A stretch of DNA of 64,000 bases from Flavobacteriaceae bacterium (GTDB lineage Bacteria; Bacteroidota; Bacteroidia; Flavobacteriales; Flavobacteriaceae). Location of the stretch: NCBI GenBank assembly GCA_028284005.1, contig JANQSO010000007.1, positions 310,001 through 374,000 on the forward strand. Direction: 5' to 3'. Position 1 is the first letter of the stretch. Each line of letters opens with the position of its first letter. Position numbers and translations under genes: made by a program. Shown piece by piece: positions 4,135-54,326 of the stretch. Below the pieces are notes generated by a model, which had not been told where the DNA came from, did not search any database, and saw nothing but the letters and a program-made list of their open reading frames with translations.

Positions 4135-5766
4135 ATGTTTGAAATTTCAGAATTAAAAGCAAAAAAGTTGCCTGAACTTCAGGAACTTGCTAATGCATTA
4201 GGTGTTCCCAAATACCGAAGCTTAAAAAAATTAGACTTAGTATATCAAATACTTGATTATCAAGCTGCCAATCCAAAAGCAGTAAAAGTGATTGCTACAG
4301 AAGAAACTTCTGCAAATGCCCCGGAAAACAAGCCCGAAATAAAGGAGCCCGCCCCAGAGAAGAAACCTCAGCAAAGGGATAACCGCAAACGGCAACAGCG
4401 AAACGATCATCGTAATGACAATCGCACCGATAACAGAACCCAAAAAGGTCATCAAAAAAATCAAGAACCAAAAAAACAAAATGATGACAAACGTACTAAC
4501 AATGAGCAGGTAAATGCCGGAAATGATGCAAAACCAAAGCATCAAAAAGAAAATAAACGAAAGGACGGAAATCAGCACAATAATCCAAAAGATAGCCGAA
4601 ATAACGGGAATAAGGATAACCGCAACAGATATAAAGAGCCTGACTTTGAATTTGACAGTATTATTGAGAGTGAAGGTGTTCTGGACATTATGCAGGATGG
4701 TTACGGTTTTTTGCGTTCCAGCGATTATAATTATTTGTCGTCTCCGGATGATATCTATGTGTCACAGTCTCAAATACGTTTGTTCGGACTTAAAACCGGA
4801 GATACCGTATTAGGGGAGGTTCGCCCTCCAAAAGAAGGTGAGAAATACTTCCCGTTGATAAAAGTGAACAAAATAAACGGATTAAACCCAAATGTGGTTC
4901 GTGACCGTGTTTCTTTTGAACATTTAACTCCTCTTTTCCCACAGGAAAAGTTTAATATAGCAGATAAGCAAAGTACTATTTCAACACGTATCATAGATCT
5001 GTTCGCCCCAATAGGGAAAGGACAGCGTGGGATGATCGTTTCGCAGCCTAAAACCGGTAAAACAATGTTATTAAAAGATATTGCGAATGCCATTGCTGCT
5101 AATCATCCGGAAGTATACCAAATAATCCTTTTGATCGATGAAAGACCGGAAGAGGTTACAGATATGCAACGTAATGTGAGTGGTGAAGTAGTAGCTTCTA
5201 CTTTCGACAAGGAAGCCACAGAACATGTAAGAGTTGCTAATCTTGTTATTGACAAAGCAAAACGACTGGTAGAATGTGGCCATGATGTTGTTATTCTTTT
5301 AGACTCGATCACACGTCTGGCAAGAGCGTATAACACTGTACAACCAGCCAGTGGAAAAATATTAAGTGGTGGTGTGGATGCTAATGCTTTACACAAACCC
5401 AAGCGGTTCTTTGGAGCGGCTCGAAATATTGAAAATGGAGGATCCTTAAGTATTATTGCTACAGCACTTACCGAAACAGGTTCTAAAATGGACGAAGTGA
5501 TCTTTGAAGAATTTAAAGGAACCGGTAATATGGAGCTTCAGTTAGACAGAAAAATCTCTAACCGAAGAATTTTCCCTGCTATAGACCTTACTTCATCCAG
5601 TACGCGTAGAGATGATCTACTGTTAGACGAGAACACGATTCAACGTATGTGGGTAATGCGTAAATATTTGGCAGATATGAATCCGGTAGAAGCTATGGAA
5701 TTTATCAATGAACGCTTCAAACAAACCCGAAACAACGAGGAGTTCCTTATATCCATGAATGGATAG
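4135..5766 (+). CDS. rho: Transcription termination factor Rho with long disordered insertion
   Basis: Rho is the hexameric RNA helicase that ends transcription at many operons. Of 543 residues, 1-45 form the Rho N-terminal helical domain; about 50-170 are a low-complexity stretch rich in Asn, Lys, Arg, Gln and Asp; about 175-250 are the cold-shock-like RNA-binding domain; the rest is the RecA-like ATPase. The P-loop PKTGKT is at 305-310 and the DERPEEV catalytic region follows near 335. The insertion makes the protein longer than E. coli Rho (419 residues) and is typical of Bacteroidota. The frame is intact and a terminator follows. Confidence 0.96.
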
Positions 5767-5803: not shown

Positions 5804-5838
5804 AATAAAAAAAGCCTCGCAAATGCGAGGCTTTTTTT
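5804..5838. terminator. Bidirectional terminator between rho and the first T9SS cargo gene
   Basis: A stem of GCCTCGC (5814-5820) with GCGAGGC (5825-5831), extended by flanking A and T runs, with a loop of four bases. It is perfectly symmetrical, so it can end rho on the plus strand and the T9SS gene on the minus strand. The hairpin is nearly the same as those at 6939-6970 and 8049-8077. Confidence 0.85.
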
Positions 5839-5861
5839 ATTCTTTTTGTAAAGTAATAATC

Positions 5862-6809
5862 TTACTGCTTAACAACTTTTTGAATAAGCTTACCAGCAGA
5901 AGTATTTAAATTCAACATATAGATTCCTCTTGCAAGATTAGAAGTATTCATAGTACCATTTACCAGTCTTACTCCAGTATCTTTACCTAATACATCGTAA
6001 AGAACAGCTCCCTTGATTTCAAGAGTAGAAGGAGTTCTAATGTTTAACACCTCTGAAGCCGGGTTTGGGTAAATTGAAACTTGTGACAATGCATTTTCAC
6101 CAACTCCTAATACTGGCTCACCTTCAATAGTCATAGCTAAAGCACCAACTGTAACACCTAAAGTAGAGAAAGGAGTATATACAGTGAATCCTCCACCAAA
6201 ATTATCATTTACATCAATTAAGTGAGGCTCAGATCCATTAACATCTCCAGAAGAATCCCAGTTATATCTCTCACCTGTTGCAGTATTATCAGTAATATCA
6301 GCGATAGTCATTATAGGACCAGCAGATACCCAATATGTTCCAGCAGCTAAATCTAAATTTCCTCCGTTAAGAGCAGTAACATCAAACTGAACATCTACAG
6401 CATCAACACCATCATCAGTTACAGTTATACCAGCTCCACTTATGTTTTGTAATGCTAGTGGTGCACTCGCTGAATTAGAAGGATCTTCTCCTGGAACTCC
6501 AGCAGCATCATTAAAGATATATAAATCCCATCCTGTAATATTAGACGCTAAACCATTATTTACGGTACCACGGATTGTAATAGATGTAATAGTAGTTGCA
6601 TCTGTTAATGTAAAATCATCAGCACATAAAACAACTGCCGTTTCAGCTGTATTAGAGCATGAAACAATAGTATTAGCACCATCTTCTGTTTGGTCTAAGA
6701 TTACTGCTTGTCTAGCCTCCAAAGAAGTTTCTCCAGAAGGAGTCCCTGTAAACTGAGCAAAAGCAAATGTTGTTGCTAAAGAAAAAGCAACTAAAGTTAT
6801 TTTTTTCAT
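5862..6809 (-). CDS. Secreted T9SS cargo protein, cassette 1 of a three-gene array
   Basis: A 315-residue exported protein. Residues 1-19 are a Sec signal peptide (MKKITLVAF...FAFAQ); the start was chosen to give it, although the frame continues upstream. The middle is beta-rich, low in Lys, and rich in Thr, Asp, Gly and Asn, with two Cys near residue 45 and no recognised domain. The last 75 or so residues are a T9SS type A sorting domain (YPNPASEVLNI, then a beta-sandwich pattern, ending KVVKQ). It should cross the outer membrane by T9SS and be released or anchored at the surface. The C-terminus is almost identical to that of the next gene, while the middles are unrelated. Confidence 0.85.
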   Translation of the reverse strand: MKKITLVAFSLATTFAFAQFTGTPSGETSLEARQAVILDQTEDGANTIVSCSNTAETAVVLCADDFTLTDATTITSITIRGTVNNGLASNITGWDLYIFNDAAGVPGEDPSNSASAPLALQNISGAGITVTDDGVDAVDVQFDVTALNGGNLDLAAGTYWVSAGPIMTIADITDNTATGERYNWDSSGDVNGSEPHLIDVNDNFGGGFTVYTPFSTLGVTVGALAMTIEGEPVLGVGENALSQVSIYPNPASEVLNIRTPSTLEIKGAVLYDVLGKDTGVRLVNGTMNTSNLARGIYMLNLNTSAGKLIQKVVKQ

Positions 6810-6840
6810 AATTAACTGTAATATTAAATTAGTAATAAGC

Positions 6841-6848
6841 CAAATATA
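6841..6848 (-). promoter_or_regulatory. -7 type promoter element of T9SS cassette 1
   Basis: On the minus strand this reads TATATTTG, a perfect match to the Bacteroidota -7 consensus TAnnTTTG, 31 nt before the ATG. The same element occurs at nearly the same distance before cassettes 2 and 3. A -33 TTTG at standard spacing was not found; a TTTG lies 13 nt upstream. Confidence 0.6.
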
Positions 6849-6938
6849 TGAAACCATTTGACAAAAACTGGTCATATTACAAAATATTTACTGCTAATTT
6901 CTATATCTGTATTGAAGTCATTTGCATCCATATAAAAG

Positions 6939-6970
6939 CAAAAAGCCTTGCAAATGCGAGGCTTTTTTTT
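6939..6970 (-). terminator. Intrinsic terminator of T9SS cassette 2
   Basis: Stem AGCCTTGCA (6944-6952) with TGCGAGGCT (6955-6963), with one G-T wobble and flanking A/T runs. On the minus strand it lies just after the stop codon of cassette 2. Confidence 0.8.
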
Positions 6971-6992
6971 ATCTATTTTAAGAAGTAATATC

Positions 6993-7922
6993 TTACTGCT
7001 TAACAACTTTTTGGATAAACTTACCAGCAGAGGTATTTAAATTCAACATATAGATTCCTCTTGCTAGATTAGAAGTATTCATGGTACCATTTACCAATCT
7101 TACTCCAGTATCCTTACCTAATACATCGTAAAGAACAGCTCCCTTAATTTCAAGGGCAGAAGGTGCGCTAATATTTAACACTTCTGAAGCAGGATTAGGA
7201 TATACGGAAACTCTAGAAAGCAAGTAATCATCTACAGATAATTGTGTACAGTCGCCTCCAAATTGGAAATTACCTATTAACTCTCCACTTCCATTTTCTC
7301 CTTCTATTTCCATTTTAGTAACAACTTCATCAGAAATAAAACCAAAGAAAGTCTGGCTATTAACCGGTGTAATGACTGTAAATGTATCAATAAGAACATC
7401 GCCGGCCCCATAAATTCTAACCACTGTGCTAGGGTCATTATTTTCCCATAGATCCATAGCTACAGCATAGACATCAACAGAAAAATTAACAATTGTATAC
7501 TCTGCAAACGTAATAGCTCCGGCTAACGCATCTACATTACCAATAGCTCCCGGTGGAATAGAAACAACATTTGTAGCGTTGGAAGCTTCTATGGAAAATC
7601 CATCTTCCAATTCACCTGCTGCATAGCAACCATCTCCGGCACTACTCACAATAGGTCCACAATCTGTTATACCTCCAGGTCCTCCGGAAAAATCTTCTGA
7701 AGCTAATGTTCCTGTACAATTCGCAGCGAAAGCGATATCAAAATCTACTAAACTGGAATAGGTGTCTATAATAGGTTGTCTGTTATTGTCAACTCTTGTA
7801 ATAATGGCAGGAGTATTGGATTGATTTGCTTGAATACCTACATCATTAGCTAGGTCTCCGTACGACTGTTGCCCAAATGCAGTACAAGCTATAAGGCAAA
7901 GCAATAAAGTAATTTTTTTCAT
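6993..7922 (-). CDS. Secreted T9SS cargo protein, cassette 2 of the array
   Basis: A 309-residue exported protein with an N-terminal signal peptide (MKKITLLLCLIACTAFGQ) and a C-terminal T9SS type A sorting domain of about 75 residues nearly identical to that of cassette 1 (same VLYDVLGKDTGVRLVNG run and KVVKQ end). The middle has five Cys and a Gly/Asp/Asn-rich beta-type composition; it does not resemble cassette 1 or 3. An ATG further upstream is in frame, but the signal peptide fixes the start at 7922. It has its own promoter-like element and terminator, so it is probably monocistronic. Function unknown; binding or adhesion is only a guess. Confidence 0.85.
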   Translation of the reverse strand: MKKITLLLCLIACTAFGQQSYGDLANDVGIQANQSNTPAIITRVDNNRQPIIDTYSSLVDFDIAFAANCTGTLASEDFSGGPGGITDCGPIVSSAGDGCYAAGELEDGFSIEASNATNVVSIPPGAIGNVDALAGAITFAEYTIVNFSVDVYAVAMDLWENNDPSTVVRIYGAGDVLIDTFTVITPVNSQTFFGFISDEVVTKMEIEGENGSGELIGNFQFGGDCTQLSVDDYLLSRVSVYPNPASEVLNISAPSALEIKGAVLYDVLGKDTGVRLVNGTMNTSNLARGIYMLNLNTSAGKFIQKVVKQ

Positions 7923-7952
7923 AATTAGTTGTTTTGTTGTTTTAGTATAAAT

Positions 7953-7960
7953 CAAATATA
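7953..7960 (-). promoter_or_regulatory. -7 type promoter element of T9SS cassette 2
   Basis: TATATTTG on the minus strand, 30 nt before the ATG. It is embedded in a region (about 7950-7980) that is clearly similar to the one before cassette 1, including a TTTGTCAAAT stretch just upstream. Confidence 0.6.
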
Positions 7961-8048
7961 TAAAACGATTTGACAAAACTGGTGGATAATCAAAACATTT
8001 ACTGTCATTTTCTATTCTGAATTAAAATCGCTTGCATCCATATAAAAG

Positions 8049-8077
8049 CAAAAAGCCTTGCAAATGCAAGGCTTTTC
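8049..8077 (-). terminator. Intrinsic terminator of T9SS cassette 3
   Basis: Stem AGCCTTGCA (8054-8062) with TGCAAGGCT (8065-8073), two-base loop, flanking A run and T run. It follows the stop codon of cassette 3 on the minus strand and is the third copy of the same hairpin. Confidence 0.75.
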
Positions 8078-8097
8078 CTTAAGTTTTGAAGCAATAT

Positions 8098-8949
8098 TTA
8101 CTGCTTAACAATTTTATGCGTTAGTGTACCTACAGAAGTTTTTACATTCAATATGTATACTCCTCTGGCAAGATTAGAGGTGTTAACAACACCATTTACC
8201 AATTTCAAACCGGTGTCCTTACCTGTAACATCAAATACAGAAGAACTGACTAACTCTACATTAGATGGTAATCTAACATTTAAAACATCACTTGTAGGGT
8301 TAGGGTAAATAGATGTAGCCTCAGCTAAATTGTCACTTGTACCTAATACTACATTATCACCTATAAGGTTTAAGATAATATCGTTATCAAAACCGGCTCC
8401 AACATCCGCCATAAGAGTTGGTACATCGATACTACAGTCAGAAGCAGATAAATAAGATGGGGCTGTTTCACCCAAAGTATTTTGCCCAATTCTAAAAGCT
8501 ACAGTATCGTCATCCAATCCAATTAGCTCAACAACTACTTCATCTCCCGGAGCAACAACAGCAGGAGTATCAAGATCTGCAACAATTAAAGTTCCTACAT
8601 CTGCGGCAGTAACTACAGTAGTTGAGTTATTTCCTATTAAAGTAAGATTCCCTAATGGAAAAGGAGCGTCTGTTGTATAAACATTTATGATCAAACTCGC
8701 ACTTGGAGCAAGGTCAACCTGTCCAACACCAAATTCAACGCTTCTAATTTCAAAATCCATTGTTACTTCAGGGAAATCCGGAAGGTAGTAAGATCTCCAC
8801 CAGTTATTTTGAGCTGTAGGACCACCTTGAACTCCACAAGCAACACCTGCTTCAATAGTCGCTACATCTGTTGAATGCGACAAGGTTATCTGTGCACTCA
8901 TAAAAGTTGTTGCCAGTAAAGCAACAAATAGTAGTGTAATTTTTTTCAT
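8098..8949 (-). CDS. Secreted T9SS cargo protein, cassette 3 of the array
   Basis: A 283-residue protein starting with a Sec signal peptide (MKKITLLFVALLATTFMSAQ) and ending in a T9SS type A sorting domain (YPNPTSDVLNV ... HKIVKQ). This domain is related to but more diverged than those of cassettes 1 and 2. The central region has a WW pair near residue 50, two Cys, and alternating beta-strand patterns; no known domain was recognised. It is the upstream member of the minus-strand array and carries its own promoter-like element. Confidence 0.83.
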   Translation of the reverse strand: MKKITLLFVALLATTFMSAQITLSHSTDVATIEAGVACGVQGGPTAQNNWWRSYYLPDFPEVTMDFEIRSVEFGVGQVDLAPSASLIINVYTTDAPFPLGNLTLIGNNSTTVVTAADVGTLIVADLDTPAVVAPGDEVVVELIGLDDDTVAFRIGQNTLGETAPSYLSASDCSIDVPTLMADVGAGFDNDIILNLIGDNVVLGTSDNLAEATSIYPNPTSDVLNVRLPSNVELVSSSVFDVTGKDTGLKLVNGVVNTSNLARGVYILNVKTSVGTLTHKIVKQ

Positions 8950-8981
8950 AATTTATGATTTTAAAGTTTAATATTGAGTAA

Positions 8982-8989
8982 CAAATATA
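8982..8989 (-). promoter_or_regulatory. -7 type promoter element of T9SS cassette 3
   Basis: TATATTTG on the minus strand, 32 nt before the ATG, matching the position of the same element before cassettes 1 and 2. Sequence further upstream is not similar to the other two copies. Confidence 0.55.
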
Positions 8990-9098: not shown

Positions 9099-10844
9099 AT
9101 GAAAAAAATCACTTTCCTCATTTGTACAATTTGTATTATTTCCTGTACAACGAACAAGAAAAAAATTGACCTCGATCTTACTACTATTTTTGAAAAATCC
9201 AATGGTACAGAAACTGCTACTTATCATGAAGTCATCGCTTTTTATGAAAATCTTTCAGAACAATATACTTCGATTGCGATGTACACAATGGGGAAAACCG
9301 ATAGTGGCAATCCCTTACATTTAATAACTTTTAATCCGGACAGGACCTTTGAATCTGAGTTTTCCAATGATGAAAACAAAAACATTCTTTTGATCAACAA
9401 CGGTATTCATCCGGGCGAAAGTGATGGCATTGATGCATCCATGTTACTATTAAGGGATCTGGCCGAAGAAAAAATTGATGCGCCAAAAAATACTATTATA
9501 GCTGTGATCCCCGTATACAATATTGGCGGCTCATTAAACCGGAACAGTACAACCCGAACCAACCAAAATGGCCCGGTTTCATATGGTTTTAGAGGTAATG
9601 CACGCAATTATGACCTTAACAGGGATTTCATAAAAGCAGATACAAAAAATGCACGGGCGTTCATAGATATTTTCAGAACCGTGAATCCTGATCTGTTTAT
9701 TGACAATCATGTAAGTAATGGTGCAGATTATCAATACGTCTTAACACATTTATTTACACAGCATAATAAACTAGGGGGCGAATTGGGCAATTATATGCAT
9801 ACTTCTTTGATGCCAAAATTGGAAAACACGCTTAAACAAAAAGAATGGGATATTACACCTTATGTAAATATCTTTAATCGTTCCCCGGAAAGTGGTTTTT
9901 CACAATTTATGGACAACCCAAGATATTCAACAGGATATACCACCTTGTACAATACCATTGGGATGATGGTGGAAACACATATGCTTAAACCTTACAAGCA
10001 ACGTGTAGAAGGCACTTACGAATTAATGAAAAGTTTTATTGAGATTACCGATAAAGACGCGGAGGTGATCAAAGAGCTTCGTAAAAATGCTGTTACAAAA
10101 TACAAAACCGGGAATACGTACCCACTTTCCTGGAAAATAGACAGTTCAAAAACAACTACACTTTCTTTTAAAGGCTACGAAGCAGAAATGAGGCCCAGTA
10201 ACATAACTAACGCAGATCGTTTAAAATACGATCGCAGTAAACCCTTTACAAAAGAGATCACTTACTACAATAATTTTGTCCCTGCTCAAACAATTGTGAT
10301 CCCTTCCGCATACATTGTACCACAAGGATGGTGGAATATCATAGATGTGTTAAAGTTGAACAATATAGAAATGGAAAGAGTGCAGAAAGATACCATTATC
10401 ACTGCAAAAGTCTATAGGATTAAGAGTTATGAAACCGTTCAAAGCCCATATGAAGGGCATTATCTACATTACAATACGCAAACCGACATTAAAACTGAGC
10501 AGGTCTCTGTTAAAAAAGGAGATTACATGATAGATACACAACAAAACAGTGTACGCTATTTATTGGAAACCTTAGAGCCTTCTGCACCGGATTCATTCTT
10601 TAATTGGAACTTTTTTGATACGATACTACAGCAAAAAGAAGGTTTCTCTCCTTATGTTTGGGAAGATATGGCTGAAGACCTTTTAAATGAAAATCCAATA
10701 ATTAAAGCTCAATTTGATGCTAAGAAAGCAAGTGACTCTAATTTTGCAAATAACTGGTACGCGCAATTGGACTGGATACACAAACAATCACCAAACTATG
10801 AAAAATCACACTTGCGGTATCCTGTCGTTAGGGTGGGTGGTTAA
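9099..10844 (+). CDS. M14 family zinc carboxypeptidase, lipoprotein
   Basis: A 581-residue exported metallopeptidase. The N-terminus is a lipoprotein signal with a lipobox ending at Cys16 (IISC). The M14 zinc site is complete: His104 and Glu107 (HPGES), His204 (DNHVSNG), with the RNYDLNRDF substrate-binding region between them and the catalytic Glu at 292 (VETH). It probably removes C-terminal residues from peptides outside the cytoplasm. The C-terminal 250 residues are a family-specific extension. Its 3' end overlaps the convergent NUDIX gene by 39 bp. Confidence 0.88.
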   Translation: MKKITFLICTICIISCTTNKKKIDLDLTTIFEKSNGTETATYHEVIAFYENLSEQYTSIAMYTMGKTDSGNPLHLITFNPDRTFESEFSNDENKNILLINNGIHPGESDGIDASMLLLRDLAEEKIDAPKNTIIAVIPVYNIGGSLNRNSTTRTNQNGPVSYGFRGNARNYDLNRDFIKADTKNARAFIDIFRTVNPDLFIDNHVSNGADYQYVLTHLFTQHNKLGGELGNYMHTSLMPKLENTLKQKEWDITPYVNIFNRSPESGFSQFMDNPRYSTGYTTLYNTIGMMVETHMLKPYKQRVEGTYELMKSFIEITDKDAEVIKELRKNAVTKYKTGNTYPLSWKIDSSKTTTLSFKGYEAEMRPSNITNADRLKYDRSKPFTKEITYYNNFVPAQTIVIPSAYIVPQGWWNIIDVLKLNNIEMERVQKDTIITAKVYRIKSYETVQSPYEGHYLHYNTQTDIKTEQVSVKKGDYMIDTQQNSVRYLLETLEPSAPDSFFNWNFFDTILQQKEGFSPYVWEDMAEDLLNENPIIKAQFDAKKASDSNFANNWYAQLDWIHKQSPNYEKSHLRYPVVRVGG

Positions 10845-38752: not shown

Positions 38753-40909
38753 TTATTTCTTGATCAGTTTCTTAACCATAGTATTTTTTTCATTTTCCTG
38801 AAGTACAACAAAATACATCCCTTGACTCAAAGAGGAAACATCAATTGCAAAACGATCATCTGCATCAAAATTGGCCGGAGTTGCTATTACTATTCTTCTC
38901 AATATATCATAAACATATAATTGAGCCGGCTCTTTTGCATCAAAATAGACCGTCACCATGTCGTTTGTTGGGTTAGGATATAGAATACCATCTATAGCAA
39001 GCTTCTTTGTAAAATACTCCTCTGCGAATAAAAAAGCTTCAATACCAATTTTCTTACCAATTACCCGTCCGGGAATATCATCAATTGGAGGATGTATGCC
39101 TCCCCAGATTCGTGATAAACTGGTTTGGTCACTGGCATCTCTATAGGTAGCCCATTGTAGTTGCATATCCATGGATGGGCCTCTCTCAAATTTTAAAAAC
39201 TCATCTTTGGCAATATCAAAAGTTCCCATCCCTCCCGGAAAATATTCATCTCCAGTTAAAAGGGTCAAAATTTCGGATGCAGCTCTTGAGTAGGTAGAAT
39301 GTCCGGAAACATAACCTGCAAAAGGTGGCGTAACAAAGGAAGGGCGTTGATACGGAAACCACTCTTCAGCAAGGATCCAATCCACCCCGGCTACATCAAT
39401 ATTAGGATCAATGATCCAATCCGGGCCACGCCAGGTATACAATTTTATTTTGCCTACATTTTCATTAAAAGCACCTGCTAATATATCACCTTCATTAACA
39501 ATCTCTATTAATCCTTCACTTAAAGGCAAACCATGAGGGTGATAACTGGGAAGTGACGCGTCTGTGGATTGCCCTCTATCTGCCATATAGCGAATGGCAC
39601 TTATAGGCCGGACATAATCATAGTAGCCTTTAATTCCCCAGGCACTCACAGCTACATCGTGCATAGCACCTCCTAAAATAAAATATGCTTTTACATCCCA
39701 TTCCAAATCATTTAAAACGGTTCCTTCTCCTCTAAATTTCTTTTCAAAAAGCGGGTGGTCATTTACATAATTAAGAATGGTGAACCAGTGACCGGGAGGT
39801 GTTTCGCTATCGGGGCCATCGGCCCAGAATTCAGCAAGGACCCTTCCATAGTCACCTCTTTTCACCATTTGTGTTTCATAAGGCATTCCTGTAACAGGAT
39901 TGACGCTCCTTCCTAAACTTGGATCTCCGCCACTCTTGAAATTGTAGAAGCTTTTATATTCTGAAAACGTTTTAGGATAGGATTCAAAAGCTACATTTCC
40001 AAGACTCTTTGGAGAGATATCAATTAAGGTAGGGTCTTCGGGGTCCAAATGAGAACCCCAGGCAGCTACTAATGCAAAACCCCATTTGTAAGGATCGTCT
40101 ATTCCCATTCCTTCCTGAATATAGGAAGGATCTCCGGGATCGTGATATACGTGATAATCAAATCCGGAAGCTGAATATGTCGTTCTATCCTCTTCAGTAA
40201 GAGAAAAAGGGGTCACGGCACCCCACTCCGGACTTAAAAACGGAGGCTGCCCTCCGGGGATTATATTACCGCTTTGGTCTACATAATTTTCAACCTTTAA
40301 AGGTTGCCAATTATTGGGATGCGTCATGGTTAGATTTCCCGAAATATCTGTATTTAAGGGCTCATTGAGGGGTTCATAAAACTGGTTTTCGTAATCGTTC
40401 GCCTCATTGGCACCATCCTGCAATCCAAAAGCGATCATTTGTTGTGCCGCATAATTACCCAAAGCAGCCGGGTCACCATTTTCATAATCTGTAGATGTGT
40501 TTGCGGTATTGTATCCCAACTCTTCCATTAGAAGTTCAATAGACTGCATAATTTCTTCCCGTCCCGGGGATGCGTCAAAACGGTGTTTCATTAGTCGGTA
40601 TACTGCATAGCTCATCGCCTTCTTTTGCGCTTCGGAAGTAGCTTCCGAGGTTTCAAAACCGTTAAAAGGGCATGTATAACCGCCAACTTTTTTTCCCAGA
40701 AAATAGGTGTCGGCCCTATCATCAAACAATGCCCACATATCATATAATAAAACCGAAGAGTGAAACAAGTTACGCGCATGTACTGTAGGGCGTGCAAAGT
40801 CATTGCGTATTCCATTTAGCATTTCTTCATTCCAATGCCTTGCAACAGATTGCGAAAAAGCTGTTACCGAAATAACTAAAAACAAAATTAGGAGTAGATA
40901 TCTTTTCAT
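38753..40909 (-). CDS. T9SS-exported vanadium-dependent haloperoxidase (PAP2 superfamily)
   Basis: A 718-residue exported enzyme with signal peptide (MKRYLLLILFLVISVTAFS), a vanadium haloperoxidase/PAP2 core, and a C-terminal T9SS type A sorting domain (LYPNPTNDMVTVYF ... VKKLIKK). Core motifs in order: RPISAIRYM (Arg of the vanadate/phosphate site), GYVSGHSTYSRA (acid-base His), and RIWGGIHPPIDD (Arg and the His that binds vanadate). It may halogenate or dephosphorylate at the cell surface; the sequence does not separate these. The start was set by the signal peptide. Divergent from the kynurenine operon. Confidence 0.87.
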   Translation of the reverse strand: MKRYLLLILFLVISVTAFSQSVARHWNEEMLNGIRNDFARPTVHARNLFHSSVLLYDMWALFDDRADTYFLGKKVGGYTCPFNGFETSEATSEAQKKAMSYAVYRLMKHRFDASPGREEIMQSIELLMEELGYNTANTSTDYENGDPAALGNYAAQQMIAFGLQDGANEANDYENQFYEPLNEPLNTDISGNLTMTHPNNWQPLKVENYVDQSGNIIPGGQPPFLSPEWGAVTPFSLTEEDRTTYSASGFDYHVYHDPGDPSYIQEGMGIDDPYKWGFALVAAWGSHLDPEDPTLIDISPKSLGNVAFESYPKTFSEYKSFYNFKSGGDPSLGRSVNPVTGMPYETQMVKRGDYGRVLAEFWADGPDSETPPGHWFTILNYVNDHPLFEKKFRGEGTVLNDLEWDVKAYFILGGAMHDVAVSAWGIKGYYDYVRPISAIRYMADRGQSTDASLPSYHPHGLPLSEGLIEIVNEGDILAGAFNENVGKIKLYTWRGPDWIIDPNIDVAGVDWILAEEWFPYQRPSFVTPPFAGYVSGHSTYSRAASEILTLLTGDEYFPGGMGTFDIAKDEFLKFERGPSMDMQLQWATYRDASDQTSLSRIWGGIHPPIDDIPGRVIGKKIGIEAFLFAEEYFTKKLAIDGILYPNPTNDMVTVYFDAKEPAQLYVYDILRRIVIATPANFDADDRFAIDVSSLSQGMYFVVLQENEKNTMVKKLIKK

Positions 40910-53831: not shown

Positions 53832-54326
53832 ATGAACAAATCAATTTACATCGCACTCTTTGTTTGCCTTACTATGAGTATGGGCTATGCACAGAGTTTA
53901 AGTCAAACGGTGATGGCGAACTCGGGCGAAACCATAACCGGAGCATCAAATACTTTGAGCTTTACCGCAGGAGAAACTATTATAGGTAATATAAGCAGTA
54001 GTTCTTCTTTGGGGCAAGGCTTTTGGTTAGGTGCAATTGTGGAACTGACGCTAAGCAGTGAAGATTTTACTTTTGAAGTAGAGGCCACTGTCTATCCAAA
54101 CCCGGTAACCGACTATCTAAATCTTTATTTTAAAGATATGGCCGGAGAAGATTTTAAGGCTGTTGTGTATGACCTCAACGGAAAGCAGGTATTGCATAAA
54201 GAGTTGCTTAAAAGCTCCGCAAATGAACTACTCAATTTTAGCACATTTAGCTCGGGTGTCTATCTTTTAAAAATTGAACAGAGCACAACTAAAAAATCAA
54301 AAACTTTTAAAATTATCAAACAATAA
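53832..54326 (+). CDS. Small secreted T9SS cargo protein
   Basis: A 164-residue exported protein: a signal peptide (MNKSIYIALFVCLTMSMGYA), a short Ser/Gly/Thr-rich segment (residues 22-70) with the sequence SLGQGFWLG, and a C-terminal T9SS type A sorting domain (VYPNPVTDYLNLYF ... KTFKIIKQ) taking up about half of the protein. Such small QGF-containing proteins are common in Bacteroidota and often precede a larger exported partner. The next gene starts 12 bp later and is probably co-transcribed. Confidence 0.85.
   Translation: MNKSIYIALFVCLTMSMGYAQSLSQTVMANSGETITGASNTLSFTAGETIIGNISSSSSLGQGFWLGAIVELTLSSEDFTFEVEATVYPNPVTDYLNLYFKDMAGEDFKAVVYDLNGKQVLHKELLKSSANELLNFSTFSSGVYLLKIEQSTTKKSKTFKIIKQ

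Follow-up and report, generated by a model that had tools for sequence, protein, structure and literature searches.

The window, a 64,000-nucleotide stretch of DNA from a member of the Flavobacteriaceae, carries three T9SS cargo genes on its minus strand, transcribed in the order c3, c2, c1 and lying between rho and an M14-type gene, both on the plus strand. Each of the three consists of a signal-peptide-like start, a core of ~190–220 residues and a tail formed by a T9SS type A sorting domain (CTD). By core family, the array reads A (c3), C (c2), B (c1). The genes and their associated features are as follows.

4135–5766, plus strand: rho, the downstream border of the slot; found at this position in relatives too, with 75–99% identity
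5804–5841, minus strand: terminator hairpin of c1, symmetrical, which could also serve rho on the plus strand
5809–6081, minus strand: shared 3' block of c1 (tail and terminator), 273 nt, direct repeat family D1; repeated on the minus strand at 6940–7212 (88%, c2) and 8045–8317 (60%, c3)
5862–6809, minus strand: c1, T9SS cargo gene, 315 aa, core family B (core 6096–6755, CTD 5862–6095); open reading frame and alignment, TIGR04183 E = 1.3e-12
6810–6992, minus strand: c2–c1 intergenic junction repeat (terminator, spacer, promoter), resembling 7923–8097 (repeats D2–D6)
6841–6848, minus strand: TATATTTG box in the c2–c1 intergenic promoter
6940–6967, minus strand: terminator hairpin of c2
6993–7922, minus strand: c2, T9SS cargo gene, 309 aa, core family C (core 7227–7868, CTD 6993–7226); open reading frame and alignment, TIGR04183 E = 4e-12
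7923–8097, minus strand: c3–c2 intergenic part of the junction repeat, with a TATATTTG box at 7953–7960
8050–8077, minus strand: terminator hairpin of c3
8098–8949, minus strand: c3, T9SS cargo gene, 283 aa, core family A (core 8332–8895, CTD 8098–8331); open reading frame and alignment, TIGR04183 E = 9e-12
9099–10844, plus strand: carboxypeptidase gene, which we take to be of the M14 family (a putative assignment of our own); the other border of the slot

The presence of three tandem T9SS cargo genes, as originally predicted, was confirmed by minus-strand open reading frames that each match both TIGR04183 (44.8–47.5 bits against a cut-off of 23; E of 1e-12 to 9e-12) and PF18962 (43–44 bits against a cut-off of 27). 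Additionally, the genome encodes SprA, the T9SS translocon (2864.7 bits). The open reading frames called for c1 and c2 run further upstream than their MKKIT starts, and the MKKIT codons at 6809 (c1) and 7922 (c2) are likely to be the start codons. Judged by eye, all three genes begin with MKKIT, a hydrophobic stretch and AQ or GQ, the typical form of a signal peptide. A TATATTTG box stands 5' and a GC-rich hairpin terminator 3' of each gene; the promoter consensus of the Bacteroidota is TAnnTTTG, which the box fits. Because of the T9SS tail, the products of c1–c3 are presumably surface proteins displayed by means of that tail. Two further T9SS sorting domains in the window, at 38756–38983 (minus strand) and 54090–54323 (plus strand), are unrelated to the array.

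Comparison of the three proteins by BLASTP matched only the tails and signal peptides. Between c1 and c2 the tail proteins have 90% identity, and that of c3 is 54–58% identical to either. At the DNA level the c1 and c2 tails are 86–88% identical (dS 0.55), with single 60-nt windows in the 3' block reaching up to 95%, and the likeness continues beyond the stop codon and through the terminator. Because synonymous sites and an untranslated terminator are included, the shared stretch is one of DNA and not of protein alone. Thus the shared 3' end stood up, while the description of the two ends as near-identical was slightly strong for an 88% block and a 90% protein. The greater divergence of cassette 3 within the same layout was likewise borne out by its 60% block. 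Upstream, c1 and c2 are modestly alike in both promoter (0.78, against a background 95th percentile of 0.71) and signal peptide (0.75 against 0.74), and c3 is at background level in comparison with either; the proposed sharing of 5' sequence between the first two genes thus holds. Inverted repeats between the array copies are the terminators.

The cores had been predicted to be unrelated, and their nucleotide identity of 0.51–0.56 is that of random pairs of different cores (0.55 ± 0.02). We looked for uniform divergence along the genes and for cores that align as full-length homologs, and found neither. A weak profile similarity was detected between the c1 and c3 cores (hhalign probability 63%), on account of which a very distant relationship between families A and B may exist. 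No named family was found for any of the three cores in profile searches of Pfam and NCBIfam, and searches of PDB sequences with core profiles returned nothing credible. AlphaFold models were poor (pLDDT 46 for the c2 core and 53 for the c1 core), and Foldseek gave no match at E ≤ 0.001 for the c1 core model. A second look at that core (VIA) placed the beta-sandwich part of bacterial sialidases first, at a best Z of 6.3, which is below the trusted level. We therefore claim no fold for the cores, which may be ligand- or glycan-binding modules.

Altogether, four core families occur at this site, A (c3), B (c1), C (c2) and D, each in several genera. Family A has 20 members and family B consists of c1 and 9 other slot genes; within a family, cores of different genera are 30–60% identical. 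Modules A, C and D are also found within T9SS proteins of 900–1500 residues with P-domains, HYR or PA domains. Additionally, A, B and C cores occur as single-module genes outside the slot, mostly with unrelated tails; the tails of off-slot genes with slot cores are mostly only 23–49% like slot tails. At one locus (L175, 1434–10195), two adjacent giant T9SS proteins of 1406 and 1466 aa are built of modules D, C and A and differ in their middles, while 101 N-terminal residues are 71% and ~870 C-terminal residues 88% identical; judged by sequence, this pair may represent the slot pattern at a larger scale. At another (L178, 1294–7156), adjacent T9SS proteins of 936–954 aa are 85% alike over their last ~480 residues and not in their first halves.

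The position of the array is conserved in many Flavobacteriaceae, in the order ABC transporter, truA, yfcE, DUF4293-like gene, rho, cargo, M14-type gene, nudix, pyrE. The M14-type border gene is 96% identical in the sister species and 59–73% in other slot loci. Across 34 distinct loci with both borders, many of the compared genomes being MAGs, the slot is empty in 8 and holds one cargo gene in 19, two in 6 and three in one, the window. The gene order of every multi-gene slot is compatible with the series D, A, C, B, and an adjacent pair of A genes was not seen in any slot. The subset retained differs between related genomes (A-C and D-A in g64; D-C and A in g55). The sister species also has three cargo genes, split over two contigs, and its assembly breaks within the second tail (L051, 7199–7399; L052, 1–96), as is expected of repeated tails. 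In one slot (L086, 7747–9908, oriented with the M14-type gene on the minus strand), an intact tail follows neither a recognisable core nor a long frame (125-aa open reading frame), and this is probably a decayed cargo gene. The second cargo gene of another slot (L055, 6035–6800) is short (177-aa open reading frame), with a core lacking a family assignment and a tail 42% identical to its neighbour's, and is possibly truncated.

Tails follow the genome and not the core. In 820 pairs of CTDs (short alignments of 77 residues), identity climbs with genome relatedness as measured by M14 identity, and a common core family adds only 1.2 points. Neighbours with different cores in one genome have a mean CTD identity of 0.735 versus 0.516 in matched random pairs (0/2000). 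Tails of neighbours with unrelated cores reach 0.99 (D and C, L063), 0.90 (B and C, the window) and 0.88 (L054), and tails of the same core in different genera are 0.52–0.65 identical; the neighbour pairs of L056 (0.52) and L055 (0.42) lack homogenised tails. A CTD tree rejects the core families as clades (p-AU 5e-7 for A, 5e-6 for B and 2e-3 for C) and instead joins D and C genes of one genome, with support of 100/97 and 99/92, and B and C of the window, with 100/99. Terminators are 0.76–0.95 alike in 6 of 9 same-genome pairs, c1/c2 among them, versus 0.64 between genomes. Neighbouring tails thus resemble each other more than orthologous tails of different genomes do, as expected of concerted evolution, and these alignments indicate that tails are homogenised between neighbours.

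Tract borders are significant at two loci, L053 (p = 0.0027; 1-mismatch run, 0/10000) and L054 (p = 0.024; 1-mismatch run, 0.0048). L053 is from Ulvibacter litoralis (also sampled as L088), where the last ~25 codons and the terminator of the A and C genes are nearly identical and the first 50 tail codons strongly diverged; from this pattern we read the shared 3' stretch as a conversion tract. No significant border was found in L063, L065 or c1/c2 of the window, the likeness of the last pair being rather even across the CTD.

A comparison of single-gene slots bears on the cores. Altibacter lentus (L062, identical to L090) and Altibacter EAC109 (L092, a single MAG) have M14-type genes that are 88% identical and one cargo gene each. 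These two genes have the promoter (97% identical) and most of the tail (CTD 74% at the amino acid level) in common, and their A-type cores are 32% identical. The EAC109 core instead shares 80% identity with the core of Altibacter HG106 (L055, identical to L102), with which M14 identity is 0.705 and tail identity only 51%. Sliding-window identity of L092 changes abruptly in two places, the signal peptide and the border of core and CTD. As judged from these alignments, there is at least one single-copy locus in which the core is that of one lineage and the promoter and tail are those of another, a pattern that hidden paralogy followed by loss could mimic. Across genomes, core A identity correlates poorly with genome relatedness (r 0.20) compared with that of its tail (r 0.50).

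At the level of sequence comparison, a mosaic structure and DNA-level homogenisation of the tails are established. We consider it probable that the rho–M14 interval is a slot for small single-module T9SS cargo, in which the gene ends are bound to the site, tails are kept alike by recombination and cores turn over. The promoter and signal-peptide start and the CTD and terminator end would be properties of the site, neighbouring tails would be kept alike through homologous recombination, by way of either gene conversion or unequal crossing-over, and the cores between these flanks would be gained, lost or replaced. A crossover between adjacent tails would add or remove exactly one unit and leave the protein in frame, which would explain why slots have 0–3 genes, why the local tail is found behind any of the cores and why multi-gene slots keep to the order D, A, C, B. 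Outside cores would replace resident ones through the same flanks, as L092 supports; we infer both the donor and recombination between shared flanks as the route. Of the mechanism originally proposed, duplication plus gene conversion or exchange of the middle segment, the homogenisation of neighbouring tails and the exchange of middles are supported by the tail tree, the terminators and L092. Rather than being variants of a single gene, the cores belong to separate families that recur in the rho–M14 slot of other genera. More tentatively, and with somewhat less than an even chance, the slot may be a self-maintaining cassette site. Adjacent genes would maintain the likeness of their tails and junctions, and through these shared ends a single crossover could insert, remove or exchange a surface module in frame, the modules coming from the same pool as those of the giant multi-module T9SS proteins.

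The main rival holds that an ancestral D-A-C-B array was inherited vertically, with conversion of neighbouring tails, lineage-specific losses and no replacement of cores in place. Such a history fits the gene order of all multi-gene slots and the different subsets kept by related genomes, and accounts for the tails without any donor. However, it sits poorly with A-type cores as distant as those of L062 and L092 behind a nearly unchanged promoter, with the lack of an adjacent A-A pair and with the weak tracking of genome relatedness by core A. We judge this history rather unlikely.

Plain tandem duplication, with the middles then diverging fast, would give c1–c3 their common layout, ends and orientation, but each core belongs to a family of its own that spans genera. 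At 30–60% identity within families, the origin of the cores lies long before that of the c1/c2 tail pair. Additionally, ordinary duplicates in this genome keep their cores better than their tails: in tandem arrays of related cores (contigs C10, C7 and C2), the cores match at E of 5e-26 to 9e-195 and the CTDs at 0.26–0.65, the reverse gradient, and adjacent CTD genes with unrelated cores elsewhere have CTDs only 0.24–0.37 identical. Cores of different families are not full-length homologs, and plain duplication was rejected as very improbable. One of the comparison arrays (L079; G000 contig C10, 109600–116018) comprises five tandem genes of homologous T9SS cargo (core E ~1e-180), whose CTDs (0.36–0.65) are less alike than their cores, the reverse of the slot pattern.

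Parallel adaptation of the tails to the species' own T9SS machinery, for which all of them are sorting signals and of which SprA is present, is scarcely credible and was rejected as well, since the likeness reaches synonymous sites and the untranslated terminator, and since CTDs outside the array, among 91 TIGR04183 matches in the genome, have no more than 42% identity to that of c1, so that the c1/c2 likeness is not generic.

In the lineage of the window the slot has been stable. The sister species (an Altibacter MAG, G001) has the same three genes in unchanged order, with cores 98.7–99.5% identical to those of the window. Tail orthologs of the two species differ by a dS of 0.06–0.09, versus 0.55 between the c1 and c2 tails; the event that joined the latter therefore predates the species split. 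Comparison with this one sister species gave no sign of rapid switching, and the suggested surface-protein diversification locus is not supported as a fast one in this lineage. Diversification may be an adaptive function of the slot.

The principle of surface-module exchange is already known. In Porphyromonas gingivalis, surface proteins differ among strains through domain rearrangement and exchange, and gingipains and adhesins exported by the T9SS are among them (PMC5266723). As in the slot, T9SS cargo with conserved ends and CTD has variable inner domains and exchanged segments, but there several loci for large virulence proteins vary from strain to strain within a single species; the slot is one site with small single-module genes, unrelated neighbours with homogenised tails, and variation between species and genera. 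In genes of the emm region of Streptococcus pyogenes, conserved signal and anchor ends enclose variable parts, and surface-protein genes are adjacent at a single site, as in the slot. The genes of this emm/mrp/enn region encode M and M-like proteins, and switching of emm occurs via double crossover in the flanks (PMC10700362). Unlike the T9SS-dependent slot, with its unrelated core families and slow turnover, the region encodes sortase-anchored coiled-coil proteins of one family that switch fast at the strain level under host immunity. Flavobacterium psychrophilum has tandem leucine-rich-repeat genes whose number differs among isolates (PMC8400371). This too is a flavobacterial tandem array of variable gene number, but it consists of one repeat-protein family, whereas the slot has unrelated cores that share only their ends. 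In the open-access literature searched, we found no account of T9SS cargo genes whose tails are homogenised, nor of a shared-tail slot with unrelated core families, and a search of plasmid DNA gave no match.

Flavobacteriaceae each have dozens of T9SS cargo genes, and the origin of new ones is poorly known. Arrays of repeated tails can break assemblies, as in the second tail of the sister MAG. The locus suggests that a promoter and a secretion tail can remain in place as one exported module gives way to another; unrelated modules would become T9SS cargo in this way. The phylogeny of a sorting domain may differ from that of the protein to which it is attached.
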